Source of the DNA: Prochlorococcus sp. AG-436-C14
GTDB lineage: Bacteria; Cyanobacteriota; Cyanobacteriia; PCC-6307; Cyanobiaceae
Reading direction: 5' to 3'
NCBI GenBank assembly: GCA_003209755.1
Contig: QCPD01000011.1
Coordinates: 1-63,649, forward strand
DNA: 63,649 nucleotides
Positions 14,561 to 52,887 of the stretch are shown here, piece by piece (the stretch's first letter is position 1; each line of letters opens with the position of its first letter). The notes under the pieces were generated by a model that made no database searches, was not told the origin of the DNA, and saw nothing but the letters and a program-made list of their open reading frames with translations. The translations under genes and the position numbers were made by a program.

Positions 14561-14571
14561 TATCTACCAAA

Positions 14572-15215: not shown

Positions 15216-15292
15216 CACTCACCTTTACTATTTATGTAAAGATAGGATTTTTTTGATCTAATGACCAGCAATTAAGACAGTATTAGAAGTGA

Positions 15293-15745: not shown

Positions 15746-15813
15746 ATTTTTAATTAGAATTCTAAAGGCAGGTTTAATTATAATTTAAATCTTAGAAGCG
15801 ATTATGACTTCGT

Positions 15814-16215
15814 TTAATAGTTATTATATGATTTTTCTTCAACCAACTCTGAATTATACTTCTGGTTAATTTCTTTTTTTATAGAAGCTCTCTTATCATT
15901 TTCTTTGTAAACTGATCTAGCAAGTTGAATAAATTTTTTGTCAAATATTTGATTGCTTTCTTTTACCCTAATATTATCTTCTATTTGCCAAAGGTTCTTG
16001 TTTACTTCTTTGAGATTATTAATTAAATCGATATCAATTTCTAGATTTTTATCTTGAAGTATATTTTTTAATAGTTTTAGCTCTTTATCTACATTTTTTA
16101 GTTTTTTTCCAGTCATATATTTTTGTTTGATTTCTAGAATCGTGATTTTATCGATTAGTTCTCCTAGAGAGACTGGAGCGAGGATAGAAGATAAGTGTTT
16201 AACTTTTGAATTCAT
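15814..16215 (-). CDS. DUF6165 family protein
   Basis: A 133-residue protein with VSLGELIDKITILEIKQKYM near residue 16, then a lysine-rich coiled-coil-like region (KLKNVDKELKLLKNIL) and LWQIEDNIRVKESNQIFDKK. This pattern fits the DUF6165 family, which is often found beside TPR-glycosyltransferase genes. Function unknown; its place next to the TPR-enzyme genes suggests a role with them. Confidence 0.7.
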   Translation of the reverse strand: MNSKVKHLSSILAPVSLGELIDKITILEIKQKYMTGKKLKNVDKELKLLKNILQDKNLEIDIDLINNLKEVNKNLWQIEDNIRVKESNQIFDKKFIQLARSVYKENDKRASIKKEINQKYNSELVEEKSYNNY

Positions 16216-16235
16216 ATTTTGCCTCTTTTTTTAAG

Positions 16236-16523
16236 TACGCTTGATACTCTCTCTATAACCTCTTCCTAATTATTTCGCACTTTTTGTCGGCATAATCTCA
16301 TAGATTGATACCAAAATGTTTTTTCCCTTCCAGTCCCCATATTAATTGAGGGTGGTTCTTCAGGAGTATCTAAGTCGATTTACCTATCCCGCCATCTAAA
16401 TGAGCTATGAATGTATAAGAGGTAATAATCAAACCACAGTTTTTAATAATGGAAGCATTTTCAAGAAAATCCCACGTAGTATCGACGTGAGGTTGGCATT
16501 TTACAAATTGAACTTGAATGAGC
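16236..16523 (-). pseudogene. Remnant of the TPR-glycosyltransferase C-terminus
   Basis: About 290 bases align with 3060-3350, the last ~100 codons of the intact glycosyltransferase gene. They include the segments for the WDFLETAAIIENCDLIIT and SIAHLAGG motifs, interrupted by small deletions and stops. It lies between the DUF6165 gene and the next TPR-sulfotransferase. Confidence 0.8.
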
Positions 16524-16549
16524 ATGACTAATATTCATAAGATAGTTAA

Positions 16550-36102: not shown

Positions 36103-36743
36103 AAATTATATAATTTTTTTAATTGCAGTTTCCATGTCTCATCATCATTAGAATTATTAATTATGTGATCTGCAAATTGTTTTTTAAAAGAGTTTGCCCA
36201 TTGAGCATCAATTCTTTGATTAGCTTCTTCAGGACTTAAGTTATCTCTTTCTTTCAGACGACTTAATTGCCTATCTTTGTGGCAATCAATATAACAAATT
36301 TCACTACATATATTTGTATAATTTTTTTCAAATAGTAGTGGAATAATCAAAATCACTACTGAATTTGATTTTAATTTTTCTAAATCTTCTTCAATTCTTT
36401 TGTTGACAAATGGATGTATCAGTTCTTCCAGCCATTTTTTTTCAACATCATTTCTAAAAACTAATTTGGCTAATTCTTTGCGATTAATAATTTTTTCATT
36501 CTCCCGTGATTTTTGAAGTATTTTATTTCCATATTTTAATAAGACTTGCTTTGATATGGTGCTTTCAGCGCTAAGTGCTTCATGAGCATATGAGTCAGCG
36601 TCTAAAATAGGCCATTGCTTGGCTTGAAAAAGAAAATTTCCAATGATCGTTTTCCCACTGGCAATACCTCCTGTGATACCTATTCTTCTTTGCTTGCCTT
36701 TCCATCTAAGGCAAAGATTGTTTGTTTGTTGTTGGTCAATCAT
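36099..36743 (-). CDS. coaE: Dephospho-CoA kinase
   Basis: Starting at the ATG at 36743 gives 214 residues, the normal size, with P-loop RIGITGGIASGKT, the ILDADSYAHE substrate motif and the LIHPFV segment. A longer frame to 36794 would overlap the divergent argJ start. It phosphorylates dephospho-CoA in the last step of CoA synthesis. The N-terminal KGKQRRI tract is typical of picocyanobacterial forms. Confidence 0.93.
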   Translation of the reverse strand: MIDQQQTNNLCLRWKGKQRRIGITGGIASGKTIIGNFLFQAKQWPILDADSYAHEALSAESTISKQVLLKYGNKILQKSRENEKIINRKELAKLVFRNDVEKKWLEELIHPFVNKRIEEDLEKLKSNSVVILIIPLLFEKNYTNICSEICYIDCHKDRQLSRLKERDNLSPEEANQRIDAQWANSFKKQFADHIINNSNDDETWKLQLKKLYNF

Positions 36744-36787
36744 TAATATTGATAGTAATTGAAAATGCTCTTCTGAATTTGGGTCTT

Positions 36788-38020
36788 TTGACATCTTCTA
36801 TATGGTCTCCAATTTCTGGTGGAATTACTACCCCTAATGGTTTTTTAGCAGCTGGCATTTCTGCAGGATTGAAACCCTCAGGCAAGAAAGATCTTGCTTT
36901 GCTTTATGCACCAGATGGTGCATGTTGTAGTGGGACATTTACTCAATCAGTCACTCGTGCTTATTGCGTAGATTTATGCATTGATCGGCTTAAGGCGTCT
37001 AAGGGCAAAATACGTGCTGTAGTTATTAACTCTGGACAGGCAAATGCTTGTACAGGTAGTAGAGGCAAAATTGATAGTGAAATTATTACACATGAGCTTG
37101 CTCATCGCTTGGGATTATCTAATGAAGAAGTGTTGATATGTTCTACTGGTGTGATTGGTGAGCCAATACCTGTCGAAAGAGTAAATAGTCATTTGGATTA
37201 TCTTATAAAAAGTTTAGATAAGGAAGCTTATCTGGATGCAGCAAATGCAATTCTTACAACAGATCTTCAGGTAAAGCAAATTGCATATCAAGCAGTTTTA
37301 GGAGGGAGAGTAATATCTATTGGAGGAATGGCTAAAGGTTCAGGGATGATTCATCCTTCAATGGCAACAATGTTGAGTTATATCACGTGTGATGTAGGTA
37401 TAGATTACTTTGTATGGTCGGATATGATTAAGCGAGTTGCAGAATCATCTTTTAATGCCATTACAGTTGATGGAGATACGAGTACAAATGATACTTTTTT
37501 GGCTTTCTCTTCTGGACCAAAATTAGATCCAAAATATTTTTCAACTCTTGAAGAGGGACTACACTTAACAGCTCAATACCTGGCTAAATCAATTGCAAGG
37601 GATGGAGAAGGTGCTAATTGTTTGATTGAGATAAAAGTAGAGGGCGCTCAAAGTGACTTAGATGCTCATCTAGTAGCGCGCACAATTGCAGCATCATCTT
37701 TAGTTAAAACTGCAGTACATGGTTCCGATCCTAATTGGGGAAGAATTATTGCTGCACTTGGTTATGCAGGTACTTCTTTTAATTTCAATGATGTCCAATT
37801 ATGGATTGGACCATATGAAATCTTTTCGAATGGAAGACCCCTGGACTTTGATAGACATATAGTGAGTAACTTTATGAAAGCAAGATTAAAAGGGAAATAT
37901 TTGATCGATGATACTATAAGTATTAGATTAAGGATAGGGATGGGGAAAGGTTCGGCTACTGCTTGGGGATGTGATTTGTCTGATCAATATGTTCGTATTA
38001 ATGCCGACTACACAACTTAA
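36788..38020 (+). CDS. argJ: Bifunctional glutamate N-acetyltransferase / ornithine acetyltransferase
   Basis: A 410-residue protein from a TTG start (MTSSIWSPISGGITTPNGF), 44 bases from the divergent coaE start; longer upstream starts would run into coaE. It has the self-cleavage site HPSMATMLSY, whose threonine becomes the nucleophile, and DPNWGRIIAALGY. It cycles the acetyl group in arginine synthesis. Its last codons, for RINADYTT and the stop, are the sequence found six more times downstream, so the gene's 3' end seems to be an insertion target whose reading frame is restored at each event. Confidence 0.95.
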   Translation: MTSSIWSPISGGITTPNGFLAAGISAGLKPSGKKDLALLYAPDGACCSGTFTQSVTRAYCVDLCIDRLKASKGKIRAVVINSGQANACTGSRGKIDSEIITHELAHRLGLSNEEVLICSTGVIGEPIPVERVNSHLDYLIKSLDKEAYLDAANAILTTDLQVKQIAYQAVLGGRVISIGGMAKGSGMIHPSMATMLSYITCDVGIDYFVWSDMIKRVAESSFNAITVDGDTSTNDTFLAFSSGPKLDPKYFSTLEEGLHLTAQYLAKSIARDGEGANCLIEIKVEGAQSDLDAHLVARTIAASSLVKTAVHGSDPNWGRIIAALGYAGTSFNFNDVQLWIGPYEIFSNGRPLDFDRHIVSNFMKARLKGKYLIDDTISIRLRIGMGKGSATAWGCDLSDQYVRINADYTT

Positions 38021-38115
38021 AGTGTGATTCAACAAGATAGAAGTTATAGCAATGGATTACAAGAGTGCTTTATACACACATATTTTAAGTGCGACCATTG
38101 TGTGATTATTATTTT
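38021..38115 (+). other. Left end of cassette 1: GTGTGATT motifs and core
   Basis: Directly behind the argJ stop: AGTGTGATT (38022), a reverse core (38042-38060, GTTATAGCAATGGATTAC) and GTGTGATTATT at 38100-38110. The same motif recurs three times at the right end of the cassette (39597-39640). Confidence 0.6.
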
Positions 38116-38142
38116 TATAGAGGGAAGTAAGTTGAATTAATT

Positions 38143-39558
38143 ATGCCAAGTAAGCATACAAAGGTTCAAAAAGAAGAGATATGTAATCTATTTCCAGAAA
38201 AAAGTGTTAAGGAATTATCTGCCATTTATGACTGTGCCGAAACAACAATCAGAAAATGCTTAAGAGATAATGGGATATCTCCTGCTGAGGTTCAAAAAAA
38301 GAATGCAGAAGATCTATCTGGACAACAGTTTGGGAAATTAACTGTTATCAAGAGAGGACCTCCATATATTCAGAAAAGAGGAGATAAAGAGGTTCGACTG
38401 ACTCAATATTGGTGTAAGTGTTCTTGCGGGAATCCTAATCTCAAGTTACTTAAAGCAAATACTCTTAAAACAGGTAGTACTAAATCCTGTGGTTGCGGGA
38501 AGGGAAATCAAAAGGATCTTATAGGTCTTGAATTTGGAAAATTTAAAGTTATAAAAAGAGGTCCTAATGGACGAAAATCAAATAGTAGATGGTGGGTGAA
38601 ATGTTCCTGTGGTAACCCTACCCTTCTTCTGAGATATGCCGAATTCTTAAAAACAGGAGAGCATTGGCATTGTGGATGCGAAAACAGTATTGAAGTTAGG
38701 AGAAATGAACACATCAAGAAGTTAAAGTTGTTAGGTAAGGTTGAATTAGTTGGCGATTACTTAAATGAATCAACATCTACTACTTATAGATGTTTAGAAC
38801 ACAATGAAATTCATCCGAGTTTGCCAAGTAATGTAGTAACAGGTCATGGACTTAAATGTTGTCATTCATCTGCGGTAAATAAAACTGCCCAAAGACTGAG
38901 GGATGAAGGTTTAAATAAACTAATTTCTTTCTGTAAAAGGAAAGGATCGCAAATTGAATATGTAGATGGATACGTCAATACTGATACTCTTGCGAATTTT
39001 CGTTGCAGAATTCATGATCAAATTCATCCTGCAAATCCTTATACAATTCGCACGAGAAATTCACGTTTAAAATGCTGCAATAGAGGTGGTTATGACACGT
39101 TAGAGCAAGCAATTCAAGGTAATCTTCGCTCTCAGGATGTACTTGAATGGTTGTATTTATATGAACTCTCAAGATTTGAAGGATATATTAAATTTGGGAT
39201 TGCACAGGATATTAGTGATAATGCCGATGATACTGAGAGAGTTATATCTCGTTCAGATGACGAAGAATATGGAGAGGAGATTTGCTCTTGGTTATTTGAT
39301 ACAAGATTAGATGCTTTTCTTGTAGAGGAGGCACTCTTTCATAAAACCATTAAGTATCAATCACATCCTATTGAACTGACAGGTTGGGCGGGATATTTAG
39401 AGATTAGGAAATGCCCTCAAGACTGGATAGTAGATCAATCACAATTCTTGGTTGATCATTTTTATAAAGTAGGCAGATGGCAGTTTGTATTAGATCAAAT
39501 ACCTTTGAATTCAGAGCAATCATCTAAAGTGCAGTCTTTGTTGCTATCTGAAAATTAG
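38143..39558 (+). CDS. GIY-YIG-like nuclease with HTH and zinc-ribbon repeats
   Basis: A 471-residue protein. Residues 1-45 look like a helix-turn-helix (KSVKELSAIYDCAETTIRKC). Two zinc-ribbon units follow, each of the form GLEFGKFKVIKRG...WxKCSCGNP...SCGC (about 65-125 and 127-185), like those of phage homing-type endonucleases. Two shorter Cys/His units follow (RCLEHNEIHP, RCRIHDQIHP). The C-terminal part (WLYLYELSRFEGYIKFGIAQ ... VEEALFHKT) fits a GIY-YIG/T5orf172-type nuclease fold. It is the only gene in the cassette next to argJ. It may be a homing or defence nuclease, or take part in mobility. Confidence 0.65.
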   Translation: MPSKHTKVQKEEICNLFPEKSVKELSAIYDCAETTIRKCLRDNGISPAEVQKKNAEDLSGQQFGKLTVIKRGPPYIQKRGDKEVRLTQYWCKCSCGNPNLKLLKANTLKTGSTKSCGCGKGNQKDLIGLEFGKFKVIKRGPNGRKSNSRWWVKCSCGNPTLLLRYAEFLKTGEHWHCGCENSIEVRRNEHIKKLKLLGKVELVGDYLNESTSTTYRCLEHNEIHPSLPSNVVTGHGLKCCHSSAVNKTAQRLRDEGLNKLISFCKRKGSQIEYVDGYVNTDTLANFRCRIHDQIHPANPYTIRTRNSRLKCCNRGGYDTLEQAIQGNLRSQDVLEWLYLYELSRFEGYIKFGIAQDISDNADDTERVISRSDDEEYGEEICSWLFDTRLDAFLVEEALFHKTIKYQSHPIELTGWAGYLEIRKCPQDWIVDQSQFLVDHFYKVGRWQFVLDQIPLNSEQSSKVQSLLLSEN

Positions 39559-39561
39559 TGA

Positions 39562-39593
39562 TTATAGGGGTGAATATGTATTCACCCCTATAA
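39562..39593 (+). terminator. Long perfect hairpin behind the nuclease gene
   Basis: The 14-base arms TTATAGGGGTGAAT and ATTCACCCCTATAA surround ATGT, three bases after the stop. There is no T-run, so it could be a factor-dependent end or an mRNA-stabilising structure. Confidence 0.6.
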
Positions 39594-39596
39594 GAA

Positions 39597-39700
39597 AGTG
39601 TGATTATTTTGTGAGGCAGTGTGATTATTGTGTGATTATTTTTTATTTAAATAGATGTAGTGATACCAGTTGAAGTTGAGATAGGTGCGTATATAAAACT
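39597..39700 (+). other. Right end of cassette 1: three GTGTGATTATT motifs and core
   Basis: GTGTGATTATT at 39598, 39619 and 39630, then a reverse core (39655-39676, TAGTGATACCAGTTGAAG) and GTGCGTATA, directly before the displaced argJ tail. The block 39620-39735 resembles 47010-47123 in order and spacing. Confidence 0.6.
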
Positions 39701-39708
39701 CTGTTTGT

Positions 39709-39736
39709 GCGTATCAATGCCGACTATACAACGTAA
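39709..39736 (+). repeat. argJ: Displaced argJ tail R1
   Basis: It reads GTGCGTATCAATGCCGAC, then TATACAACGTAA. In frame this is VRINADYTT-stop, identical to the ArgJ C-terminus with four synonymous third-position changes. Confidence 0.85.
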
Positions 39737-39780
39737 TTGAGATCCATTGCAGCACAGTTGATCTTAGCGAGAAGTAAAGT

Positions 39781-39860
39781 AAATAAAACACTAATAAAAC
39801 AGTGATGTCGCTATAACTGGGATTTCGAGGTTTTTATTTAAAAAATAAAACACTAAAAAA
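39781..39860 (+). other. Left end of the restriction cassette: AATAAAACACTA motifs and core
   Basis: AATAAAACACTAATAAAAC (39782), a core copy (39805-39826, CGCTATAACTGGGATTT) and AATAAAACACTAAAAAAA (39844). The same two motifs around a core mark the right end of this cassette at 42203-42283. The remainder of the 39559-39963 gap shows no gene. Confidence 0.65.
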
Positions 39861-39963
39861 ATAACTTTAAAACGTCTTGAACGTAGTCATAATACGAATA
39901 ATTGGTATGTATTTTATGCAATTAAAATTATTGATGATAAAATAGGAAGAACTATTTTGAAGA

Positions 39964-41232
39964 ATGAAAGATTGCGATTTAAAAAAAAATAAGTTTAATG
40001 CGATTTCTTTATTTTCTGGTTGCGGCGGATTAGATATTGGTGCTTCTAATGCAGGTTTTGATATATCTTTTGCAAACGAGGTTGACCCTTCAGCAGTTGA
40101 AACTTTAAAAATTAATACTCCTGATTATCATATTGATAATAGGTCTATCGTGGAAATTAGTGCTGAAAGCATATTTAATTCTACAGGTCTAAAAGATATA
40201 GATCTCCTACTAGGTGGTCCGCCTTGTCAAGCATTTAGTGTCTTTGGAAAAAGGAAAGGTGTTAAAGATAGAAGAGGTATGATGACTTTTGAATTTCTTC
40301 GTTTAACTAAGGAATTAGAACCTAAAGTTTTTTTGATGGAAAATGTAAGAGGTTTATTATCTATGCCTTTTGCAAGTAAAAATGATAATGAAAATTGCGA
40401 TAAGACTTTTCAGGAGAAAGGATCACTCTTGAAACTTCTCATTGAGGAATTTCATGATATTGGTTATAGCGTAGATCTATATGTAACTAATTCAGCGAAC
40501 TATGGTAGTCCTCAAATTAGAGAACGTATTTTCTTAATTGGTAATAGATATGGGGTTAAATCAGATTTTTTAAAACCTACTCATAGTAATAGGTCGGAAG
40601 ATAACTTATTACCATTTAAAACTCTTGGTGATGCAATAGGAAAAAATTTTGTAGATTCAGATACAAGTTGTATGAATTTCAGTAAAAGGAAGTTGCATTA
40701 CTTGTCGATGATTCCAGCAGGAGGTAATTGGAGATCACTTCCAGTTGAAATCCAGAAAGAATCTATGGGTAAAGCTTGGTATTTAAAAGGAGGCAGGAGT
40801 GCATATTGGAGAAAACTATCTATGGATTTCCCCTCTCCAACAGTTGTAACTATGCCTAATCATGCAGGAACAAGCATGTGCCATCCTGATGAATTAAGAG
40901 CAATAACTGTAGGTGAGGCAGCAGCGATTCAAGAGTTTCCGAGAGACTATAAGTTTTTTGGTTCGACAACTGAGAAGATGAGACAAATAGGGAATGCTGT
41001 TCCAGTTGGTTTGGCGAAGGTTGCTGCTAGTAGTGCATTTAATTTATTGACTACAATTAATAGTGGAAATTATGAGTCATCACGTCAACCATTTTTTAAT
41101 GAACAACATTTGAGACCACATGTAAGAACTAGGTCTTTTTATAGAAAGGGAATTGTTTTTGATGGTCACTCTCCTTATAAAACTACACTTGTAGATTCTG
41201 ATCAGATGGATTTATTTATTGATGCTTCGTAA
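39964..41232 (+). CDS. DNA (cytosine-5-)-methyltransferase
   Basis: A 422-residue protein with the motifs in order: ISLFSGCGGLDIGASNAGF (SAM binding), LLLGGPPCQAFSVFGKR with catalytic C88, FLMENVRGLL (ENV), SANYGSPQIRERIFLIG (QxRxR), and GNAVPVGLAKVAA near the end. The target-recognition part is about residues 220-320. It methylates cytosine and should protect against the restriction enzyme encoded convergently, with which it overlaps by 21 bases. The recognition sequence cannot be read from the protein. Confidence 0.93.
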   Translation: MKDCDLKKNKFNAISLFSGCGGLDIGASNAGFDISFANEVDPSAVETLKINTPDYHIDNRSIVEISAESIFNSTGLKDIDLLLGGPPCQAFSVFGKRKGVKDRRGMMTFEFLRLTKELEPKVFLMENVRGLLSMPFASKNDNENCDKTFQEKGSLLKLLIEEFHDIGYSVDLYVTNSANYGSPQIRERIFLIGNRYGVKSDFLKPTHSNRSEDNLLPFKTLGDAIGKNFVDSDTSCMNFSKRKLHYLSMIPAGGNWRSLPVEIQKESMGKAWYLKGGRSAYWRKLSMDFPSPTVVTMPNHAGTSMCHPDELRAITVGEAAAIQEFPRDYKFFGSTTEKMRQIGNAVPVGLAKVAASSAFNLLTTINSGNYESSRQPFFNEQHLRPHVRTRSFYRKGIVFDGHSPYKTTLVDSDQMDLFIDAS

Positions 41233-42027
41233 TAGTTGTAACCAATCATTTAACTCATTAGGATTTTTATTTAGGTTGTAATTTTGTAAAGTTTCTTGTT
41301 CAAATAAGTTTAACTTTTCCTTTATCCTTTCTTTTATTTTGCTTTCATTAATTCCTTTGTAAATACCCTCAAGAATATATTCTTGAGTCTCTTCACAATT
41401 ATTTAACCAACTCCAGAATTCTTTTCCTGCAAGAACATCTACTTTTTGTGTTAAGTCTTTCACATCATGATTTTTACCTCGATTTATACCTCTTAAAATA
41501 TCGTATTTATCTGTTAGATCAAACTTTGAACCATAAAATATTCCTACTTTAATTGTATTGATATTGTCAGAATGATTTTCTATAATTTCTTGAAATGATC
41601 TATTAAGTTGAACTGCCATCGTTAATTGAATAGTCCATTTCCCTGCTTTTAGCGATAGTAAATGTGTTTTATCTTCTTTATAAACAATATGATCAATTTC
41701 ATCGAAGCATGATTCATAATATGGATAATTTTCTCTTCTAAATTTAGTATCTAATTTTTTTGTATTAAAAACATTAGGTAATATTTTCTCATCTATCAAT
41801 TTTCCAAAACCAGTATTATGACCAATCATTAAATGAGAAGAAACTAGAATATTAATGAGATCTTTATTCTCCTTACAGTCATGGAAATTATAGATAATTG
41901 GTATTAAAAATGGATTGAGTGACATTGTCTCTATTGATATTGAGTCTAATTTTGCTTCTCTTTGCTTTATCCACCATTTAGTCCAATACTTTGTTTTTTC
42001 TATAACTTGAGATTTACTAACTTGCAT
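41212..42027 (-). CDS. PmeII-family type II restriction endonuclease
   Basis: A 271-residue protein whose segments LIGHNTGFGKLIDEKILPNVFN (spaced), FDEIDHIVYKEDKTHLLSLK, KWTIQLTMAVQLNRSF and LTDKYDILRGINRG match the PmeII-type family. The D-E-I-D-H ... LSLKAGKW layout fits a PD-(D/E)xK core (E/D plus xLK). It cuts DNA unmodified by the neighbouring methyltransferase. The convergent, tail-overlapping layout ties the two genes into one addiction-type unit inside a single cassette. Confidence 0.8.
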   Translation of the reverse strand: MQVSKSQVIEKTKYWTKWWIKQREAKLDSISIETMSLNPFLIPIIYNFHDCKENKDLINILVSSHLMIGHNTGFGKLIDEKILPNVFNTKKLDTKFRRENYPYYESCFDEIDHIVYKEDKTHLLSLKAGKWTIQLTMAVQLNRSFQEIIENHSDNINTIKVGIFYGSKFDLTDKYDILRGINRGKNHDVKDLTQKVDVLAGKEFWSWLNNCEETQEYILEGIYKGINESKIKERIKEKLNLFEQETLQNYNLNKNPNELNDWLQLLRSINK

Positions 42028-42202
42028 TTATTTTTATATTTCCATTGTTTACTAATTTGTCAATTCATAAATTGTCTTGATGTGGTTATTGTTTCATTAG
42101 AAGATTACATACTATTTTTCAATAATTTGCGAGAAAAATTTCTCAATGAATAACCTTCTAATGCAATAATCGCTTTTTTTAATTATTATCTACATTAAGT
42201 AG

Positions 42203-42325
42203 AAATAAAACACTAAAAAAACGGTGGATAGGGTATGACTGCGTTTTGGGCGATTCTATGCGAAATAAAACACTAATAAAACAGTAACTGCTTCCTTGAG
42301 ATCAATTGCTATGACTAAGTTTTAA
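42203..42325 (+). other. Right end of the restriction cassette
   Basis: AATAAAACACTAAAAAAA (42204), core (42229-42249, GGGTATGACTGCGTTTT), AATAAAACACTAATAAAAC (42264) and a second core (42297-42319, ATCAATTGCTATGACT), then the displaced tail R2. No gene is visible in 42028-42449. Confidence 0.65.
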
Positions 42326-42335
42326 CTCTTATATT

Positions 42336-42362
42336 TGTATCAATGCCGATTATACGACGTAG
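42336..42362 (+). repeat. argJ: Displaced argJ tail R2
   Basis: ATCAATGCCGATTATACGAC then GTAG: INADYTT-stop, with every difference from argJ synonymous and a TAG stop instead of TAA. The arginine codon before it is lost, which places the crossover near that point. Confidence 0.85.
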
Positions 42363-42368
42363 CGTGAG

Positions 42369-42428
42369 ATCCTTTGCTATGACTTCTGTTTGAGAGACGC
42401 GTATCCTTCAGGCACGGTTTAGGCACGC
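42369..42428 (+). other. Left end of cassette 3: core and GGCACG motifs
   Basis: Core at 42369-42390 (ATCCTTTGCTATGACTTC), then GGCACGGTTTAGGCACGC at 42411-42428. Matching GGCACG motifs stand at the right end (43067 and 43118-43135). Confidence 0.6.
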
Positions 42429-42449
42429 TTGATTTACACCTGTTTTGAT

Positions 42450-42896
42450 TTAGGTGTTGTTATTTTCTCTTTTTTTTCGGAGTTTCTCCCTTTCCTCATG
42501 TTTGTCGAAATAACATATTCTTTTTTCTTTGTAATAAACTGAATAACCGCCAGTATGTTGCCACATGTCTATATTTTTACTTTCAAAACTACTCGGGTTG
42601 CCCCATCCTGCGAATAATCCCATTTCTCTAATTGTTTTATCATTTGGGAATGTCAACAATGCTTCTGCAGGCGTCAAATGTAAGGGTGAGTATGGGGTTA
42701 GAATAAATTGAGGTGAATCTGAAATGAGTTTTACTTGTATACCATTACAAGTTTTTTTTGAAGGTTTTATAAATCGAGGTGCAGAATCTTTTCTCGTAAA
42801 ACCTCCAATAGTGGCAGTAGCAGGTGTAGGACAGAATGGTGCTCCAATAGCAACTATCGACAAAAGAAATTTGATTACATGGTTTTTTGACTTCAT
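42450..42896 (-). CDS. Small exported protein of unknown function
   Basis: A 148-residue protein with a signal peptide (KFLLSIVAIGAPFCPTPATA, cut near residue 29). The mature protein has two cysteines and ends in a highly charged tail (KHEEREKLRKKRENNNT). It is the only cargo of the third argJ cassette. Function unknown. Confidence 0.65.
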   Translation of the reverse strand: MKSKNHVIKFLLSIVAIGAPFCPTPATATIGGFTRKDSAPRFIKPSKKTCNGIQVKLISDSPQFILTPYSPLHLTPAEALLTFPNDKTIREMGLFAGWGNPSSFESKNIDMWQHTGGYSVYYKEKRICYFDKHEEREKLRKKRENNNT

Positions 42897-43066
42897 TTTT
42901 ATGTCTCCTTTATATCTTTTATTTTATCTTGGTTTTGATTTAGATCTAATAAGAATCAAAAATCTATAATTTATATCAATTATTTGTAGTCATAGTAGTT
43001 ATTAGTTTTACGAAGTAATAGTGTGGTGTTTGATTGATTTTTGCTGGTCTCTTATAAGGCATTGAA

Positions 43067-43181
43067 GGCACGGTTTAGTGGAAGATGCTACCGCTCTGAC
43101 TAGGATTTGAAGAGTTAGGCACGATTTTGGCACGCATAGCATCTGCAGTATAAAATCAGTTATTGCAATCGTTTCAAGAGA
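43067..43181 (+). other. Right end of cassette 3: GGCACG motifs and two cores
   Basis: GGCACGGTTTA (43067), core (43088-43111, ACCGCTCTGACTAGGATTT), GGCACGATTTTGGCACGC (43118-43135) and a reverse core (43157-43176), then tail R3. Apart from this, the 42897-43505 gap holds only the ends of cassettes. Confidence 0.6.
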
Positions 43182-43195
43182 ATATCTACCGTAGG

Positions 43196-43223
43196 TTTAG
43201 ATCAATGCCGACTATACGACCTA
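43196..43223 (+). repeat. argJ: Displaced argJ tail R3
   Basis: ATCAATGCCGACTATACGAC then CTAA: INADYTT-stop, synonymous to argJ. The following ~100 bases (AAAGTGTGAT, GTTATATCAATCGATTT, AATACGCAC) align with the 100 bases behind the real argJ stop. Confidence 0.85.
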
Positions 43224-43344
43224 AAGTGTGATGTTAGAGACACAAGTTATATCAATCGATTTGGAGGGTGTTTAATACGCACCTTTGAAAGTGTGACCTA
43301 AGTGTGATGTAGATTTTTAAAAGTGTGATGTTACTTTTTTAAAC

Positions 43345-43391
43345 TTCTAGAGGTGAACCGTGGTTCATGTCTAGATTAGAAAAATATATTT
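43345..43391 (+). repeat. 47-bp direct repeat left of the methyltransferase gene
   Basis: The block TTCTAGAGGTGAACCGTGGT and onwards to AATATATTT recurs at 44293-44339 with four differences. It contains the inverted pair TGAACC/GGTTCA. The two copies bracket the methyltransferase gene, and each is preceded by AAGTGTGAT motifs. Confidence 0.75.
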
Positions 43392-43505
43392 TTCACCATT
43401 TTTGTAGCTGCTTATAAATTTAATTTCTAATGATTTTGAGATCTTTATTGTTATGCTAATCCTATCATTCTTTCACAAGATTAATAGTTAATTTTTTTGA
43501 TGGAA

Positions 43506-44096
43506 TTAGGTATCTTTAATTACTTCCAGGATCATATCATATTGTTCAATTAAATTATTATATATCGAAGATTCCTGTTGAAGTAAATTAAGATCTACAT
43601 TTTGTTCAGGATGTAATCTAAACCAGTCTTGACTAGGTTTAATTCCTACTTGTTTTAATTCAAAATCTATATTTAGATATAATCCAAGAGGACTATTAGC
43701 TCCTCCTTTCTGAGCCCACATTTGATTTTTTTTCTTGGAGAATAATTCTAAACCTAGAGGAGTAATGACTCTGACATGAGTGGGATCATCGTAGAAAAAT
43801 TGATGCCTAAAATGAGGAACTACGATATGAATTTTAGATCCATGTTTACATACCCGATAAATCTCTTTGAAGATACCAAAGTATACTTCTGTTTCTTTTC
43901 CAAGATGTTCTAGTACATGTATTAGTGCAATTTCTGATACAGAATTTGTTTCCCATGGCCATGGGAAAGATTCTAGATCATGCTTAATGTCTGGTGTTCC
44001 AAATTTATCTACATTTAAATAACCTGGAAATCTCTTTTCACCACAGCCTAAATTGAGTTTGATATCGCTCATCACAATATTTATTTTTTCTATCAT
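43506..44096 (-). CDS. SAM-dependent methyltransferase
   Basis: About 196 residues. Motif I is IKLNLGCGEKRFPGYLNVD, then DIKHDLESFPWPWETNSV, IHVLEHLGKETEVYF and VVPHFRHQFFYDDPTHVR. This is the small class I methyltransferase type often seen in polysaccharide clusters; substrate unknown. Start is uncertain: ATGs at 44072 (MSDIKLNLGCG) and 44096, with a longer frame to 44132; none has a clear ribosome site. It is bracketed by 47-bp direct repeats. Confidence 0.8.
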   Translation of the reverse strand: MIEKINIVMSDIKLNLGCGEKRFPGYLNVDKFGTPDIKHDLESFPWPWETNSVSEIALIHVLEHLGKETEVYFGIFKEIYRVCKHGSKIHIVVPHFRHQFFYDDPTHVRVITPLGLELFSKKKNQMWAQKGGANSPLGLYLNIDFELKQVGIKPSQDWFRLHPEQNVDLNLLQQESSIYNNLIEQYDMILEVIKDT

Positions 44097-44292
44097 ACAT
44101 TGACTTCCCATATAAAATGTTACGCAATCCAATATTATTAATCTGTTTTATTAGAAGTGTATGGAGAGTATGATGATTTGCTTTATTCGAATCAAAGAAC
44201 ACTAGTAGACATCTACTTTTTATCGACTCATTTTTTGTGTGTGATTTAAATGTAGGGCAAGTGTGATCTTATTACGAACCTTGTTTTGATCT

Positions 44293-44339
44293 TTCTAGAG
44301 GTGAACCGTGGTTCCTGTCTGGATTGTAAAAATATATTT
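44293..44339 (+). repeat. 47-bp direct repeat right of the methyltransferase gene
   Basis: Second copy of 43345-43391; GTGTGAT motifs stand just before it at 44240 and 44270. Confidence 0.75.
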
Positions 44340-44401
44340 ATCTATCGCTATGTGTGAGCAGTTAGTTAATCAAATATTGAGTGATTTGGATATATTAAGT
44401 A

Positions 44402-44485
44402 TTAACCAAAACCAGTCATTTCAGTAAACAGAGCATTATTGCTTGCTGAATTTGTAAATCCTAAAAGAATTTTGTTTCTAGACTA
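44402..44485 (-). pseudogene. Remnant of a DUF4214-protein C-terminus
   Basis: The minus strand reads RNKILLGFTNSASNNALF, then TEMTGFG and a stop, matching the end of the exoprotein at 62763 (ELLLGFAESAENKALFTEMTGFA). Nothing in frame continues upstream. It is another stranded gene tail next to an intact exoprotein gene. Confidence 0.7.
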
Positions 44486-44572
44486 GTTAGTATGATTGAG
44501 ATTTTTTGGAAGAATCCCTTAGAAAGAATTATCTATTCAACCATGATTTAGTGAATATACTTGTATTTAGAA

Positions 44573-46816
44573 TTAAGCAATTAAAGTAACAGTATCAGCA
44601 AAGCCATTGTTCGTTAAGTAATCCGTCATCTGATCTAAATTTTGATAGTTGGCATATTGGATATTGCCATCTGCATGCATAACGGCTCTTAGGTATGCGG
44701 TGTTATCGACTTTGCTCCAATAGACTTCTTGGAATCCGTCACCGTCATAGTCCCCAACGGTTTTGAGAATCAGATTATCTAACTTCAGATCATTAATGAA
44801 TGTTCTGGATCCGTCAAAGTCACTATCTTTTTCTACTAGTCCTGCTTTAACCAATGGGTCTTCATAGATACCTACAACCCTTGTTGTGCCTCCTTGTCCA
44901 TGCTTGGTGTAATCAATTGCTCCAGTGATCGGATCAATAGAGGCCGTGACCCATCTTCCACTTTCTTTATTAGTAAAGATTTCTTCTGTTACCCCATCAT
45001 CATTAACATCTAATTTACCTTGGTATTTGTATGCAGATTTAACAATTGAAGGTGCTTCTCCTAAAAATCCATGTAAGTTTCCATCATAATCTTTAATATT
45101 ATTCAACTGATAATTTTCCCCTACTACTTTATAGGTGGTATTGGTTGATGAGTTCGACGTGTCTTTAACTGTGACAGAAGCAGTACTGCCGACTTGAGTC
45201 GATCGAGATGAGTCAGAAAAGAGTTTGATATTTAAGGTCTCGTTTCCTTCTGTGTTGAGATCATTGGCAAGGGTATGAGAGAAGGAAAGAGAACCATCAA
45301 CGCCAACGTTGCCTGAACCAGTTAAGGAACCACTAGAGAAATCAGAAGAATTGATATTGCTTCCACTTAAAGACCAGTAGAGGGTTGTGCCAGCATCGAC
45401 GTTTGTTGTGGAGATTGAAGTGGTTAGGGTGCTGCCCTCATTGATGGAGGTGCTAGAGGGACTGATGGTGTAGGCAGGAGAAGGAGAAACTGAAGTATCA
45501 CCAATAGAAACAGAAGCAGTACTGCCGACTTGAGTCGATCGAGATGAGTCAGAAAAGAGTTTGATATTTAAGGTCTCGTTTCCTTCTGTGTTGAGATCAT
45601 TGGCAAGGGTATGAGAGAAGGAAAGAGAACCATCAACGCCAACGTTGCCTGAACCAGTTAAGGAACCACTAGAGAAATCAGAAGAATTGATATTGCTTCC
45701 ACTTAAAGACCAGTAGAGGGTTGTGCCAGCATCGACGTTTGTTGTGGAGATTGAAGTGGTTAGGGTGCTGCCCTCATTGATGGAGGTGCTAGAGGGACTG
45801 ATGGTGTAGGCAGGAGAAGGAGAAATTGTTGTGAATGAAATCGAAGTGGTATCTGTTATCTCTGAAAAAGAATTACTGGAAGAATCATCAAATGCAGTAC
45901 CAGGTATTTGAAGGTAATACTGAGTGGAGGAATCGAAATCAGAACTTGGATTGATCGTGATTTGAGTCGAACCAGATCCAGTGACTTGAGTACTCGTGAC
46001 GTCAATGGATTCGACTGTTGAATTGTCAGATGTTTTTTTAATGAGGATGTTGCCACTTTCAACATCAACTACTTCTGAGAAGGTCAGAATAATATTGCTA
46101 TCCAGGGCAACAGAAGTTGCATTATTGGCAGGAGATGAATTACTTAAGGTTGGAAAACTATTATCAATTACTACCGATGCACTTGTAATTGAATACTCAT
46201 TTAATTCACCATCAAAGTACGTAACAATAGCCTTATAACTTGCATCAATAGTTGAATCAATTATTAATGAATTTAATCCATTTTTTTCATCTATTGGAAT
46301 ATTGTCTTTTAACCATTGTGTATTTGAATAGCTGTGGATATTCTCACTATCGCCAGTAATACTGGGTGATAACTCAATTTGATTACTAGATAAATCTTCT
46401 TTTATTTGTGTGAGGCTTATCGAAGCAATAGAATCATTGATGTCATTGTCTTCTATTTCAGTAACTGTTCCAGGAGGGTGATTTGATGTACCTGTTGAAT
46501 AGGAAAACTCTAAAGGACCATTTATAACGGTAGATCTTAAAATTACTGTTGTTGGATCATCTAATGAAATTGATGCAGATACGCCAGTGAGATTCGGATC
46601 TAATGCTTGAGAATTTCCAGGTCCGACTCCCGAAGTTGATCCATTGATGATATTACAAATACCTGTAGCAGCCTCAGCTGCAGTCCAAATGTCTTTCCCA
46701 TTTTGGTAGTAGCCAGCATGTCCAGAATAATTATTGATATTGACGTGTAATTGACTGCTACTTCCCCATGTTCCACTTAAGTTAATTCGAGTTGATTTAA
46801 GATGGTCGTTACTCAT
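44573..46816 (-). CDS. Large exoprotein with Ig-like, Calx-beta-like repeats and shared C-terminal domain
   Basis: A 747-residue protein without a signal peptide. An SbsA-type Ig-like domain lies near residues 220-330 (SPANNATSVALDSNIILTF). Two 112-residue units with YTISPSSTSINEGSTLTTS and NTEGNETLNIKLFSDSSRS follow, with a layout like Calx-beta repeats; most of each unit is identical even at DNA level. The shared domain of about 176 residues (572-747) ends the protein. It is probably a surface or secreted adhesin-like protein. It lies in the fourth argJ cassette, together with the methyltransferase. Confidence 0.75.
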   Translation of the reverse strand: MSNDHLKSTRINLSGTWGSSSQLHVNINNYSGHAGYYQNGKDIWTAAEAATGICNIINGSTSGVGPGNSQALDPNLTGVSASISLDDPTTVILRSTVINGPLEFSYSTGTSNHPPGTVTEIEDNDINDSIASISLTQIKEDLSSNQIELSPSITGDSENIHSYSNTQWLKDNIPIDEKNGLNSLIIDSTIDASYKAIVTYFDGELNEYSITSASVVIDNSFPTLSNSSPANNATSVALDSNIILTFSEVVDVESGNILIKKTSDNSTVESIDVTSTQVTGSGSTQITINPSSDFDSSTQYYLQIPGTAFDDSSSNSFSEITDTTSISFTTISPSPAYTISPSSTSINEGSTLTTSISTTNVDAGTTLYWSLSGSNINSSDFSSGSLTGSGNVGVDGSLSFSHTLANDLNTEGNETLNIKLFSDSSRSTQVGSTASVSIGDTSVSPSPAYTISPSSTSINEGSTLTTSISTTNVDAGTTLYWSLSGSNINSSDFSSGSLTGSGNVGVDGSLSFSHTLANDLNTEGNETLNIKLFSDSSRSTQVGSTASVTVKDTSNSSTNTTYKVVGENYQLNNIKDYDGNLHGFLGEAPSIVKSAYKYQGKLDVNDDGVTEEIFTNKESGRWVTASIDPITGAIDYTKHGQGGTTRVVGIYEDPLVKAGLVEKDSDFDGSRTFINDLKLDNLILKTVGDYDGDGFQEVYWSKVDNTAYLRAVMHADGNIQYANYQNLDQMTDYLTNNGFADTVTLIA
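45174..45489 (-). repeat. 316-bp perfect direct repeat, copy 1
   Basis: Identical by eye to 45510-45825, period 336 bases, equal to 112 codons and in frame. It encodes one Calx-beta-like unit of the exoprotein. Complete identity at synonymous sites means a very recent duplication or ongoing conversion. Confidence 0.9.
45510..45825 (-). repeat. 316-bp perfect direct repeat, copy 2
   Basis: Second copy of the unit at 45174-45489, inside the same gene. Confidence 0.9.
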
Positions 46817-47012
46817 TCATGCAGAAGTCTTTACTTGGACGAATATCAGAACTGATAATACTTTACTAACTAGTTGATATAGAAAACTATAACAATAAAG
46901 ATGGCTGTTTCGATTTTGGAAGTTAAATTAACTGAATTTAAGCAAATCTAGTGATAATGAGAGGACTATATAGGTCGTAATGATTCTTTATTAACCTGTA
47001 TAATAAGTGTAA

Positions 47013-47123
47013 GGAGATTGTGATTATTTTTTGTATATAAATGTTAGTGGTGCCAATGGGTTAATTAATATGTGCGTATATGAAATGCTAAAGGTGCGTA
47101 TGAATGCCGACTACACAACTTGA
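47013..47123 (+). repeat. argJ: Right end of cassette 4 with displaced argJ tail R4
   Basis: TGTGATTATTTTTT (47015), a reverse core (47043-47064), GTGCGTATA, then R4 at 47095-47123: GTGCGTATGAATGCCGAC, TACACAACTTGA. This reads VRMNADYTT-stop, with one isoleucine-to-methionine change and a TGA stop. The rest of the 46817-47235 gap shows no gene. Confidence 0.75.
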
Positions 47124-47129
47124 AAGTGT

Positions 47130-47222
47130 GACAACCAAAATCCATTGGTATGACTAAATTATTTTGGATATGCGTAATCATATTTTTATTATGTGAGAAT
47201 AATGTGATTATATTACGCATCT
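47130..47222 (+). other. Left end of cassette 5: core and GTGTGA-like motifs
   Basis: Core at 47138-47160 (AATCCATTGGTATGACT), then ATATGCGTAATCATA and TATTACGCAT in opposite orientation around TGTGAGAATAATGTGATTA. Confidence 0.5.
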
Positions 47223-47235
47223 TTCTTTTTGTTTT

Positions 47236-47262
47236 AGGGGGTAAAAATGTTTCCACCCCCAA
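47236..47262 (+). terminator. Hairpin terminator
   Basis: AGGGGGT and ACCCCC arms, followed by AATTTTTT on the plus strand. It stands 3' of the minus-strand gene at 47324, and the A/T tracts on both sides would allow use in either direction. Confidence 0.6.
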
Positions 47263-47323
47263 TTTTTTCGTTAATATTTTTAGTGATTATCTAATTCAAT
47301 CTTTTATCAAAAACTAGTACGTC

Positions 47324-47914
47324 TTAGAAAGAGAAAAAATCTTCTGTTTGTCTTTGCTGAACCCGTAAAAAATTATTATTTTTGGAACTATTATTATTTG
47401 ATAATAAAGGATCAATATAATTGATCTTTTTTATTTTAGTTTGAGATTGATTTGATGATTTTATTTTAGTTACTGATAATAAAGATTTTGTCGATTGATT
47501 TTCTGTCTTGATATTGAATTGACTAGTGTTTACTCTTTTATATGAGTTTTGGATAGATTGGATCCTTAAAAGACTTGATCCTCCTATGGCTACAACAGCC
47601 AAACTACCAATCCCCCAAAATTTTGAAGGTGGTAAGAAATTTAGTTTTTTAATATTTGGCTTTTCTAGTATTTCGTGATTATCTGTTGCTGAGTCAAGAG
47701 TTAATTGATCTTCTAGCTTTTCTTTGACTAATTCAAGATCTGAATTATCGTCTATACGTTCAACAAATTGATTTGTTTGATTGTCTAGGATGTTATGAAA
47801 GAAATAACCTATTAATGCAAAGACAATTAATAGAAAGAGTACCAATATTGCATCTATAGGAATTGAAATAGTACTAGCGTCGGTCAACTCAATCTCAGTG
47901 ATTCCAGGAGGCAT
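47324..47914 (-). CDS. Two-helix membrane protein of unknown function
   Basis: A 196-residue protein with helices at about 21-43 (AILVLFLLIVFALIGYFFHN) and 104-118 (FWGIGSLAVVAIGGSSLL), an acidic loop between them, and a Ser/Asn/Lys-rich tail ending NFLRVQQRQTEDFFSF. A stranded copy of its 3' end lies at 60648-60745. It is the sole cargo of the fifth argJ segment. Confidence 0.6.
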   Translation of the reverse strand: MPPGITEIELTDASTISIPIDAILVLFLLIVFALIGYFFHNILDNQTNQFVERIDDNSDLELVKEKLEDQLTLDSATDNHEILEKPNIKKLNFLPPSKFWGIGSLAVVAIGGSSLLRIQSIQNSYKRVNTSQFNIKTENQSTKSLLSVTKIKSSNQSQTKIKKINYIDPLLSNNNSSKNNNFLRVQQRQTEDFFSF

Positions 47915-47994
47915 TTACAATCTATAACTCTATATATTAAAACCACCTCTAAAAAATATGGCTAGACTTCTTTACTTATCTATTTAATCTCAAT

Positions 47995-48022
47995 GCGTAT
48001 TAATACTGGCTATACAATTTGA
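47995..48022 (+). repeat. argJ: Displaced argJ tail R5 (decayed)
   Basis: CGTATTAATACTGGCTATAC, AATTTGA: R-I-N-T-G-Y-T-I-stop. Three residue changes from RINADYTT, the most altered copy. AAAGTGTGA motifs follow at 48023 and 48041, then a reverse core at 48068-48088. No cargo lies between R5 and R6. Confidence 0.7.
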
Positions 48023-48120
48023 AAGTGTGAGAATTTTGAGAAAGTGTGATATTGTCTACTCTTCAAAAAGTTAGTTATAGCAGTGACTCTGAATTGTGCA
48101 GACTACTAACATACTCAAAG

Positions 48121-48150
48121 ATTAATATTAATGCCGATTACACGATTTAG
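48121..48150 (+). repeat. argJ: Displaced argJ tail R6 (outermost)
   Basis: ATTAATGCCGATTACACG, ATTTAG: I-N-A-D-Y-T-I-stop, one residue change. A reverse core follows at 48160-48180. This is the last copy seen and would mark the oldest displaced gene end. Nothing else is visible up to 48374. Confidence 0.7.
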
Positions 48151-50869: not shown

Positions 50870-51175
50870 GTGCACGAAAAACGGCATAGGGTGAGGACGC
50901 TGGAGGCATGTATCTATAGCAGTACATCTGTACTAGCAATGATAAGGAGATGTTGTCAAGTAATTCTGAAGAAAGTTACTTCTCTTTCTTCTTCAATTGC
51001 TCTTCTAAAAAGCTTTTGTTTTCTCTCTTTCTTCAGCGTCAAAGGTATCTCACTATCGCCCAGATCTCATTCGAAGACTCCTCCTGCACCAAAGTGTGAG
51101 TGGGATGCATGTGATTGTGATACATTAAAAGCTAAGAGAGAGAAGAGAAAAGCTAGGAAGAACTGCCTTATCTAA
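50870..51175 (+). CDS. Doubtful basic ORF
   Basis: 101 residues from a GTG. Only the last ~40 (KTPPAPKCEWDACDCDTLKA and a basic tail) look like protein. An alternative frame starts at about 50950 after GGAG and covers much of the same DNA. It is open to the stop at 51175, touching the end of the next minus-strand gene. Confidence 0.25.
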   Translation: MHEKRHRVRTLEACIYSSTSVLAMIRRCCQVILKKVTSLSSSIALLKSFCFLSFFSVKGISLSPRSHSKTPPAPKCEWDACDCDTLKAKREKRKARKNCLI

Positions 51176-52887
51176 GCAATCAAAGCAATAGTATTAGCAA
51201 AGCCATGACTGGTTAAGTAATCCGTCATCTGATCTAGATTTTGATAATTAGCATATTGAATATTGCCATCTGCATGCATCACGGCTCTGAGGTATGCGGT
51301 GTTATCAACTTTACTCCAGTAGACCTCTTGGAAGCCGTCACCATCATAGTCACCAACAGTTTTAAGAATTAGGTTGTCAATTTTCAGGTCATTAATAAAA
51401 GTCCTAGATCCATCAAAATCACTGTCTTTTTCAACAAGTCCTGCTTTTACTAAAGGATCTTCATAGATGCCAACAATTCTAGTACTACCACCTTGCCCAT
51501 GGTTGGTATAGTCAATGATTCCTGTAATTGGATCAATAGTAGTAGTTGCCCATCGCCCACTAACCTTATTGGTATAAATTGCTTCTAAGCTACCGTCCCC
51601 ATTTACATCTAATAGGCCTTGATGCTTATAAGAAATAATTGCATCTTCGGGAGTATCGCCAAGAAAACCATGAAGATTACCATCATAATCACATAAATAA
51701 GAAATTTGATATTCACTTCCTTTTGTATGGGATAAATCATCCCATTTATTGGCTTGAAGAATAGCATTTTCTATTTTTGTTGCATAATCCTCATAATAAT
51801 TTAAATGAACAATGTTATCGCTATTAGCAAAAATCAAACCCTGAGATTCATTACCAGCAGAAATTACATTAGATTCGCATATTTTCTCAATTTCTTCATT
51901 ATATTGAACAGAAATATTGATAGGAGCAGAAACATCTAAATTTAAAGATTCATTCAACTCGTATGCACTATAAACAACATCTTCTAACGTACCATGATCA
52001 ATAGTTTCCATTTTCACAAGCCAAAGATCATCTCCACTATCAGTCCAAAGAAAATAATAGTATTCTAAATTAGGAGAATATGTTTCAATTTCTTGGCTGA
52101 GATAAGTTGTATCTGTTTCTCCACTTGGTTTGACTTTAGATAATGAAAATTCTTTTGTCTGTCCTAAAGAGTTTTCAGAGATTTGTGTTTCAATTATGAG
52201 ATACGTATTGCCATATTTATCATCTGCTATTGAGGTACAAGATCCCTGTGTTTCTAATACTATTGATTGACTATTAGTATTACTATCACTATTTGCAACT
52301 ACGAAAGTTTTATAGTCATTAATCTCATTTATATACTTATCAACAGCAACTATTTTACCAAAATTTTGGCTTTGATAAATTGTATCTATACTAAAATCAT
52401 TTGAGATATTTAATAAACTAATATTATTTTCAATTTGTTCATCATTATGCATTATACCACTAATTAAATCTAAATATCCGATTCTATCCTCTTCGCCTAA
52501 ATAATTATTATAATAAAACCTTAAATCAGGAGTAAGTGACACATAATCATACATAAAATTATTTCTTTCATAAGAAAACGAACCATTTGCTACTGAGAAA
52601 GCATCATAAGAATTATCTTCTTCATTATAGATTAAATCTATTAAATAGTAATCCTGTGCGCAAGACTGAAGTAAATTATCTGAACTCTTAAAATCAAATT
52701 TTAGAACAAGTTGAAGGTTAGTTGAATTATCAATTTTGGGTAATAAATAGCCACCAAGATGTGATACTTCACCATGACTTATTATATTACTTGCCTTAAT
52801 ATTTGATTCATCTAATAGATTTTTTAAAAATATAGTTGCTTGCTCTGAAAACCTTCTAGATTCACCTCCAACAATAATCCCCCACAT
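51172..52887 (-). CDS. Exoprotein of unknown fold with shared C-terminal domain
   Basis: A 571-residue protein without signal peptide. Residues 1-395 are acidic and rich in Asn, Tyr and Ser, and in places beta-propeller-like (SVANGSFSY, ADDKYGNTYLIIET), but no family is clear. Residues 396-571 are the shared domain (CDYDGNLHGFLGDTPEDAII ... FANTIALIA). A TATAAT box lies about 25 bases before the start. It is the first of three consecutive genes with the same C-terminus. Confidence 0.72.
   Translation of the reverse strand: MWGIIVGGESRRFSEQATIFLKNLLDESNIKASNIISHGEVSHLGGYLLPKIDNSTNLQLVLKFDFKSSDNLLQSCAQDYYLIDLIYNEEDNSYDAFSVANGSFSYERNNFMYDYVSLTPDLRFYYNNYLGEEDRIGYLDLISGIMHNDEQIENNISLLNISNDFSIDTIYQSQNFGKIVAVDKYINEINDYKTFVVANSDSNTNSQSIVLETQGSCTSIADDKYGNTYLIIETQISENSLGQTKEFSLSKVKPSGETDTTYLSQEIETYSPNLEYYYFLWTDSGDDLWLVKMETIDHGTLEDVVYSAYELNESLNLDVSAPINISVQYNEEIEKICESNVISAGNESQGLIFANSDNIVHLNYYEDYATKIENAILQANKWDDLSHTKGSEYQISYLCDYDGNLHGFLGDTPEDAIISYKHQGLLDVNGDGSLEAIYTNKVSGRWATTTIDPITGIIDYTNHGQGGSTRIVGIYEDPLVKAGLVEKDSDFDGSRTFINDLKIDNLILKTVGDYDGDGFQEVYWSKVDNTAYLRAVMHADGNIQYANYQNLDQMTDYLTSHGFANTIALIA

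Follow-up and report, generated by a model that had tools for sequence, protein, structure and literature searches.

Stacked gene tails behind argJ in Prochlorococcus as traces of a family of elements that integrate at the argJ 3' end

Serial integration at the 3' end of argJ

A 63,649-nucleotide stretch of contig QCPD01000011.1 from Prochlorococcus sp. AG-436-C14 (assembly GCA_003209755.1), called the window below, includes argJ followed within 10 kb by six extra copies of the last 24 bp of the gene (R1 to R6, Table 1). Empty sites and junctions in related strains establish, at the level of sequence comparison, that these tails result from site-specific integration at argJ of elements bringing a replacement gene tail. 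Seven units without an integrase lie in the six tail-bounded segments of the window, which measure 0.13 to 3.9 kb, and recognisable arm sites are present in segments 1 to 4. It is considered probable that such units are cassettes with attP ends, put in at argJ in trans by integrases that are matched to them via the arm sites. Loci of relatives used for comparison are given L-numbers; L001 and L008 come from contigs C6 and C8 of the same genome.

The original prediction, made from the sequence of the window, had counted seven argJ ends, the true one and six copies. Their number and places were reproduced by a scan of both strands with a degenerate 24-mer, which returned four sites without mismatches, two with one and none with two or three. 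Three sites had four or five mismatches, namely R5 and two others, and R5 is therefore recognisable by its position only; beyond the listed tails, no site on either strand of the window is within three mismatches of the argJ 24-mer. A 17-bp core pattern searched in the whole genome gave six exact matches, all in the argJ array, and inexact ones on contig C8 (one at one mismatch and one at two), and the pattern read backwards, as a control, gave three matches at up to two mismatches. The one-mismatch core on C8 (75571-75587, minus strand, near the contig end) is either a chance match or part of a broken array. Allowing one mismatch, the core pattern is present in 37 of 41 genomes of the genus, with two hits over all 41 for the backwards control, and it occurs at least twice per genome in 31 of the 41 (a count made by eye, as were the count of arm words and some other genome counts).

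Empty and occupied forms of the site can be compared in relatives that we take to be high-light Prochlorococcus, members of which are among the 13 genomes with the arm word of unit 2 (at most two mismatches) out of 400 genomes of the family, presumably the Cyanobiaceae. The argJ of this clade is about 50% identical and ends in INSEYTT; a tail of this type is present in 79 of 87 high-light genomes, in 28 of them in at least two copies (the second count by eye), and 17 of 18 fetched regions were confirmed to contain an argJ that ends in the tail. Eight strains (L208 to L215) have argJ followed directly by a conserved flank that is 82-98% identical to that of L208. In five others (L202, L204, L205, L206 and L217), argJ is separated from the flank by one to four units; the flank, 85-98% identical, comes after the outermost tail, and the sequence adjacent to argJ is unrelated (42-53%). 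The flank is 0.15 and 1.7 kb further off in L216 and L218, with no recognised outer tail, L219 shows only the outer tail with the flank, and the flank was not found within the fetched regions of L203 and L207. No member of the integrase family described below was found in the 18 regions. Given this comparison, the core follows the argJ of the host (INADYTT versus INSEYTT), and at least one arm word is common to the two clades.

The same units were also found at different places in different strains. A 1.3-kb unit encoding a cyanate lyase by Pfam (cynS) is layer 1 in L014 and L025, layer 3 in L103 and layer 4 in L031, and has the opposite orientation in L096; it is 94-98% identical across the five strains, the argJ genes of which are 88-94% identical. 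The array of L096 has argJ running one way and four further tails the other, part of it being inverted. A 1.7-kb unit encoding a HupE/UreJ protein by Pfam (hupE) forms layer 1 in L026 and layer 2 in L102 and is 99.7% identical between them; the argJ genes of these strains share 89% identity, and both flanks of the unit are unrelated (about 46%). The identity of the two hupE copies begins and ends within the 8-bp core AATGCCGA, at which the units of the genus meet. Window unit 2 and unit 1 of L103 have just about 100-190 bp at either end in common and differ in their cargo, which in L103 comprises a zinc-finger protein and a PD-(D/E)XK nuclease.

The earlier proposal of serial integration, in which each newcomer brings a replacement tail, is thus supported by the junctions and the empty sites, and the borders of segments in other strains fall at the tails. 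In the mechanism proposed here, the argJ 3' end would serve a family of picocyanobacterial integrative elements as their chromosomal attB, and strand exchange, as placed by the junctions, would occur within the 8-bp core. The right half of the attP of each element would recode the last ArgJ codons and the stop codon, so that argJ stays whole.

R1, R2 and R3 all encode INADYTT with synonymous third-base changes and the stop codons TAA, TAG and TAA, as had been noted. These synonymous tails are no proof of whole diverged argJ alleles, and they are described here as right halves of attP from different element classes; such replacement tails may be kept coding since integration makes each of them the live end of argJ. 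Each copy had been expected to match the live argJ of some other strain. With bases past the stop codon included, likeness to a live end was seen by eye for R1 (L103), R3 (L034), R4 (L010) and R6 (L017, L026 and L098), and none was seen for R2 and R5. The outer copies R5 and R6 had further been called the most altered, in line with an age gradient; this is correct for R5, with three amino acids changed, and incorrect for R6, which has one change, as R4 does. The gradient itself was rejected, as tail damage does not rise with layer over 21 arrays (rho 0.14, p 0.40), where 20 of 39 displaced tails are intact versus 19 of 21 live ends.

Ends of the units and integrases of relatives

An attP of the lambda type consists of a core flanked by arm sites, and the layout of the units appears to be the same. 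At the left end of well-kept units, the rest of the tail and the stop codon come first, and then a pair of direct repeats with 11-bp spacing; its start lies about 57-61 bp from the core in class I and 77-83 bp in class II. The right end has two pairs. Measured to the next core, they start at distances of about 147 and 87 bp in class I and about 126 and 105 bp in class II. The arm words go by class, and about twenty different ones were counted, including AATAAAACACT, GGCACG, GGTAAC, GCTACC, GCTCAC, GGTCAC, ATACCACT, GTGTGATTATT and GTGACTAA. Many unit ends share a motif similar to AATCnATTGnTATnACT, in one orientation or the other, at about +20-45 and -35-50 from the core (by eye), which may be a site for a host factor or an excisionase. 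Most units are small, 34 of 44 measuring 0.8 to 4 kb.

A pair matching in at least six of seven positions, with a spacing of exactly 11 bp and located at +55-64 or +76-85 of the argJ end, was found in 29 of 33 argJ ends (all except L010, L011, L093 and window unit 1). In controls, spacings of 8-10 and 12-15 bp gave 0 to 3 pairs, inward windows 0 to 4, and shuffles a mean of 0.8 and a maximum of 4. The left and right ends of a unit agree more than expected, with a score of 615 versus 522.6 +/- 11.1 when permuted for 44 units and 216 versus 172.9 +/- 6.8 for 13 integrase-bearing elements; neither value was reached in 20000 permutations, although, the ends and units being related sequences, these figures are not independent-sample p values. 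Units below 400 bp (window unit 6, a 42-bp piece of L013 and a 264-bp piece of L096) were omitted from the 44-unit test, and one of each of the duplicate pairs L030/L107 and L024/L111 was used in each analysis of end agreement, unit comparison, arm pairs, tail damage and integrase alignment.

With one of its members as query and a threshold of 1e-20, the tyrosine integrase family was matched in 43 of the 400 genomes, and 30 loci were fetched of the matches listed. In 19 of 19 loci (L113-L131), other genera included, the integrase match begins about 200-300 bp away from an argJ-type tail, and the remoter members L141 and L142 also have such a tail. Outside the genus, argJ is present in 9 of 12 fetched regions, and in 9 of 9 the argJ stop codon forms one border of the element. 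In the class II elements L018 and L111, the integrase is on the argJ side, not the far side. The complete class II element of L018 also encodes a 203-aa recombinase consisting of the catalytic domain only (16191-16802) and a ParB-methylase fusion (14381-15883).

R295, K332, R419 and Y451 are invariant in 18 aligned integrases, and the closest solved relative is lambda Int (E 0.0002 over a 45-residue stretch). PF00589 is just above the cut-off in L105, and a SAM-like domain is above it in L018 and L111. In a model of the L018 integrase, residues 11-80 form strands and a helix with a predicted local distance difference test (pLDDT) score of 71-89, the whole model being poor (mean pLDDT 48.5), and a fold search with it returned nothing usable. 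The second-box residue, usually His in the lambda-type family, is Tyr in 17 of the 18 integrases, which argues against the lambda-type assignment. The integrase-bearing elements of relatives otherwise show the features of this type, namely an arm-binding N-terminal domain, a SAM-like core-binding domain, the catalytic residues and arm sites, and the tyrosine integrase encoded by full elements is accordingly taken to be of the lambda type, binding arm sites through its N-terminal domain. Likeness of arm words tracks the integrase N-terminus (rho 0.43) versus the remainder (0.30), or 0.38 versus 0.23 without near-identical pairs, which hints that the arm words may be a code read by the N-terminus.

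The integrase family profile gave no match in the window or in the rest of this genome even at E 1, and the positive control on the genus worked. Among the 41 genomes of the genus, 19 match the family at 1e-5, many as fragments only, and ten long stop-free integrases are found in seven genomes (by eye), mostly in less complete assemblies. Of the 17 genomes with a completeness of at least 90%, only one has a long integrase, and all 17 carry tails; an open reading frame of the integrase cluster is present in 8 of the 44 units, long in 6. Cassettes are thus common and helpers rare. As neither viral contigs (searched with a class I integrase and the tail pattern) nor phage records (searched with the integrase) gave a match, no phage vehicle was found.

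A different tyrosine integrase stands directly behind a gene that is presumably rpsD in L099, L104 and L108 (G004, G014 and G026), with argJ-type tails a few kb off. The rpsD 3' end is perhaps a second protein-gene hotspot, in which argJ units are nested; in L099, where a second copy of the rpsD tail was looked for next to this integrase, none was found.

Proposed movement of units without an integrase

The retention of arm sites, the occurrence of single units at changing layers and the scarcity of helpers suggest that the integrase-less units are cassettes mobilised in trans; their integration and movement would depend on an integrase that shares their arm class and arrives with another element. 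Several observations weigh against this reading. The left pair of window unit 1 matches in five of seven positions, below the threshold. End agreement is an average, many units of the 44-unit test scoring at or below the median of the others; some low-agreement units are clear fusions of different arm words, others are decayed, and the integrase element of L167 has differing words at its two ends. In the 13-element test, L018 and L111 were scored with class I windows and are uninformative. The cynS copies of L096 and L103 (94.3%) are no more alike than the argJ genes of these strains (94.4%); in the copy of L096, 60-odd bases are gapped and the right core is degenerate. L172, L173 and L174 show tails without argJ, and such elements may sit elsewhere. 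The N-terminus tracks the arm words only modestly better than the remainder of the integrase. Among the integrase ends examined, the arm word of window unit 1 alone recurs (in L018), those of units 2, 3 and 4 being absent. Finally, this genome is 94% complete in 52 contigs, and a helper could be missing from it.

An alternative judged rather unlikely is that the units are dead cis-mobilizable elements (CIMEs), left over from full elements that lost their integrase, and are now static or travel in cis with an adjacent element. In its favour, these genomes often contain integrase fragments, some units are fused or have lost a core, and tandem accretion of decayed elements is known, as described in the available excerpts of PMC5704250. 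However, the hupE and cynS units occur alone, from core to core and in varying layers, at 93-99.7% and 94-98% identity, respectively, and the exact spacing of the arm pairs is kept in units without an integrase. The units could instead be moved by a host tyrosine recombinase, the sole PF00589 match in this genome, encoded by a frame of about 390 aa on contig C6 (L001, 1438-2598). Frames of like length and score are present in most genomes of the genus (neighbours were checked in L001, where they are presumably cobO-like and hemH-like genes). This is improbable, as the existence of about twenty arm words in fixed places points to numerous arm-binding proteins, full elements bring their own integrase, and the profile of the argJ-linked family has no match in this genome. 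Least probable of all, and already disfavoured, is a spread of tails by homologous recombination or duplication without a site-specific reaction. Recombination at repeats could explain how units 4a and 4b lost the core between them, but identity between strains starts and stops inside the 8-bp core with unrelated flanks, and occupied and empty sites differ at the tail.

Trans-mobilisation of cassettes might be part of a wider arrangement, on which our opinion is evenly balanced. The system would act as a decentralised integron with one argJ attB from Synechococcus to high-light Prochlorococcus, in which about twenty arm words are compatibility codes and passing integrases that match them recruit, one by one, single-gene cassettes that lack a recombinase but have a complete attP. 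The core, co-diverging with the ArgJ end of the host, would be a clade lock, and the shared arm words a portable key.

Units of the window and known systems

Table 1. Positions of argJ, its tail copies and the units of the window.
Feature	Position	Strand	Remarks
argJ	36722..38020	+	Start codon uncertain; open reading frame with Pfam ArgJ, 1.2e-132; last codons are the attachment site
Live argJ tail	37997..38020	+	INADYTT-TAA; attL of unit 1
R1	39713..39736	+	INADYTT-TAA
R2	42339..42362	+	INADYTT-TAG
R3	43201..43224	+	INADYTT-TAA
R4	47100..47123	+	MNADYTT-TGA
R5	47999..48022	+	INTGYTI-TGA; degenerate
R6	48127..48150	+	INADYTI-TAG; outermost recognised
Unit 1	38008..39723	+	Class II ends; one 471-aa protein, 38143-39558
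Unit 2	39724..42349	+	Class I ends; type II restriction-modification pair
Unit 2 C5-methylase	39964-41232	+	
Unit 2 EcoO109I-type endonuclease	41212-42027	-	
Unit 2 left arm pair	39781..39803	+	AAATAAAACACTAATAAAACAGT; second, weaker set at 39843-39861
Unit 2 right arm pairs	42203..42285	+	At 42203 and 42263
Unit 3	42350..43211	+	Class I ends; one 148-aa protein, 42450-42896(-)
Units 4a and 4b	43212..47110	+	Fused; segment R3-R4
Segment 4, 208-aa protein	43506-44132	-	
Segment 4, 747-aa protein	44573-46816	-	Ig-like surface protein; Pfam Big_5
Unit 5	47111..48009	+	196-aa protein, 47324-47914(-), also in units of L011 and L102
Unit 6	48010..48137	+	128-bp remnant

The protein of unit 1 belongs to no Pfam or PADLOC family. 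The right arms GTGTGATTATT of the unit are at 39598, 39619 and 39630, and its left arm is exact at 38100 with a degenerate partner at 38089. Its two ends resemble those of the integrase-bearing L018 element, agreeing in 94 of 148 aligned positions at one end and in 112 of 159 at the other, with the closest likeness in the right arms. Unit 3 has GGCACG arms on the left (42411 and 42422) and right (43067, 43118 and 43129). Segment 4 has the left arm GTGTGA at 43291 and 43302. Its start corresponds to the left end of unit 2 in L031, and its positions 923-1056 correspond to the right end of the same L031 unit. The right-end sequence of related units stops near 44267, where a second left end begins, and a repeat links 43336-43394 with 44284-44342. 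Because a right end is followed by a second left end inside it, the segment consists of two units with a core lost near 44.25 kb. Past R6, the window has further stretches in common with argJ-island loci, and older layers without recognisable tails probably continue there.

In the gene for the 747-aa surface protein, a 300-bp stretch is duplicated at 100% identity (45174-45473 and 45510-45809). Five large proteins of the window (5052-6299, 44573-46816, 51172-52887, 53040-54296 and 54296-55615) share one C-terminal region of the GRWVTASID-PITG type (by eye), their N-termini being unrelated. A cluster of large surface-type proteins is found in 16 of the 44 units, often starting near the left end of an argJ unit.

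Available excerpts of PMC5704250 describe integrative and conjugative or mobilizable elements at the 3' ends of housekeeping genes, CIMEs and tandem accretion. The argJ units are alike in the protein-gene 3' end as target, the gene kept whole, integrase-less elements with att sites and tandem stacking; in the window, tails are present at both borders, and no integrase was found in window or genome. They differ from the CIMEs described there in being small, with one or two genes, in the many arm words on one core and in units standing alone. No autonomous partner was found in this genome, and no conjugation or transfer gene among the proteins scanned, including the seven unit proteins of the window (Pfam). 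Regarding a CIME origin by decay and cis movement, relatives hold integrase fragments, yet single units are also found alone at other layers. The Dehalococcoides ssrA islands, 15 of which are without an integration module, likewise form a multi-layer stack behind one gene with a gene-end copy bounding each layer, and use, according to excerpts of PMC3146451, a serine recombinase and a transfer-messenger RNA gene; the argJ elements, by contrast, have a protein gene as their site and pair tyrosine integrases with arm sites. Tycheposons of Prochlorococcus measure 4-200 kb and are tied to one of seven tRNA genes, according to descriptions in papers that cite the original one (excerpts of PMC10872708 and PMC10187409); they are similarly picocyanobacterial and cargo-carrying, with a tyrosine recombinase in full forms. 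The elements described here differ from them in the argJ site, though they may overlap with what the original paper describes. No tRNA gene is present in the window, the segments of which, at 0.13 to 3.9 kb, are below this size range and lack a recombinase.

Integrons, which are characterised by a resident integron integrase beside attI and by attC hairpins, hold an array of single-gene cassettes at one site, the order of which varies between strains. The argJ array resembles them in both respects, and differs in that no resident integrase was found (none is encoded in the window), that the cassettes carry a two-armed attP and that the site is in the end of a coding gene. The original prediction held such a landing site to be undescribed in this lineage. 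This stands within the open-licence literature searched, where no paper joins argJ with attB and integrase and none on argJ and Prochlorococcus is evidently about islands, although stacked protein-gene 3' ends are known in other bacteria. Parts of the system are known separately, namely protein-gene 3' targets with tandem accretion (PMC5704250) and stacked ssrA islands (PMC3146451), as far as the excerpts of these papers go. The argJ site, its picocyanobacterial reach, the collection of arm words that share a single core and the small size of the units are new within the searched literature.

These findings bear on the open question of how streamlined ocean genomes gain single genes. Recombinase-less cassettes of one or two genes look like a compact route to single traits in the commonest ocean phototrophs, with cynS, hupE-type and restriction systems in defined units at a predictable site. 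Because the ends are defined, the site predictable and empty forms known, gain, loss and order of these units can be read from genomes and tested, and the arm words on one common core offer a natural data set for the evolution of integrase DNA specificity.

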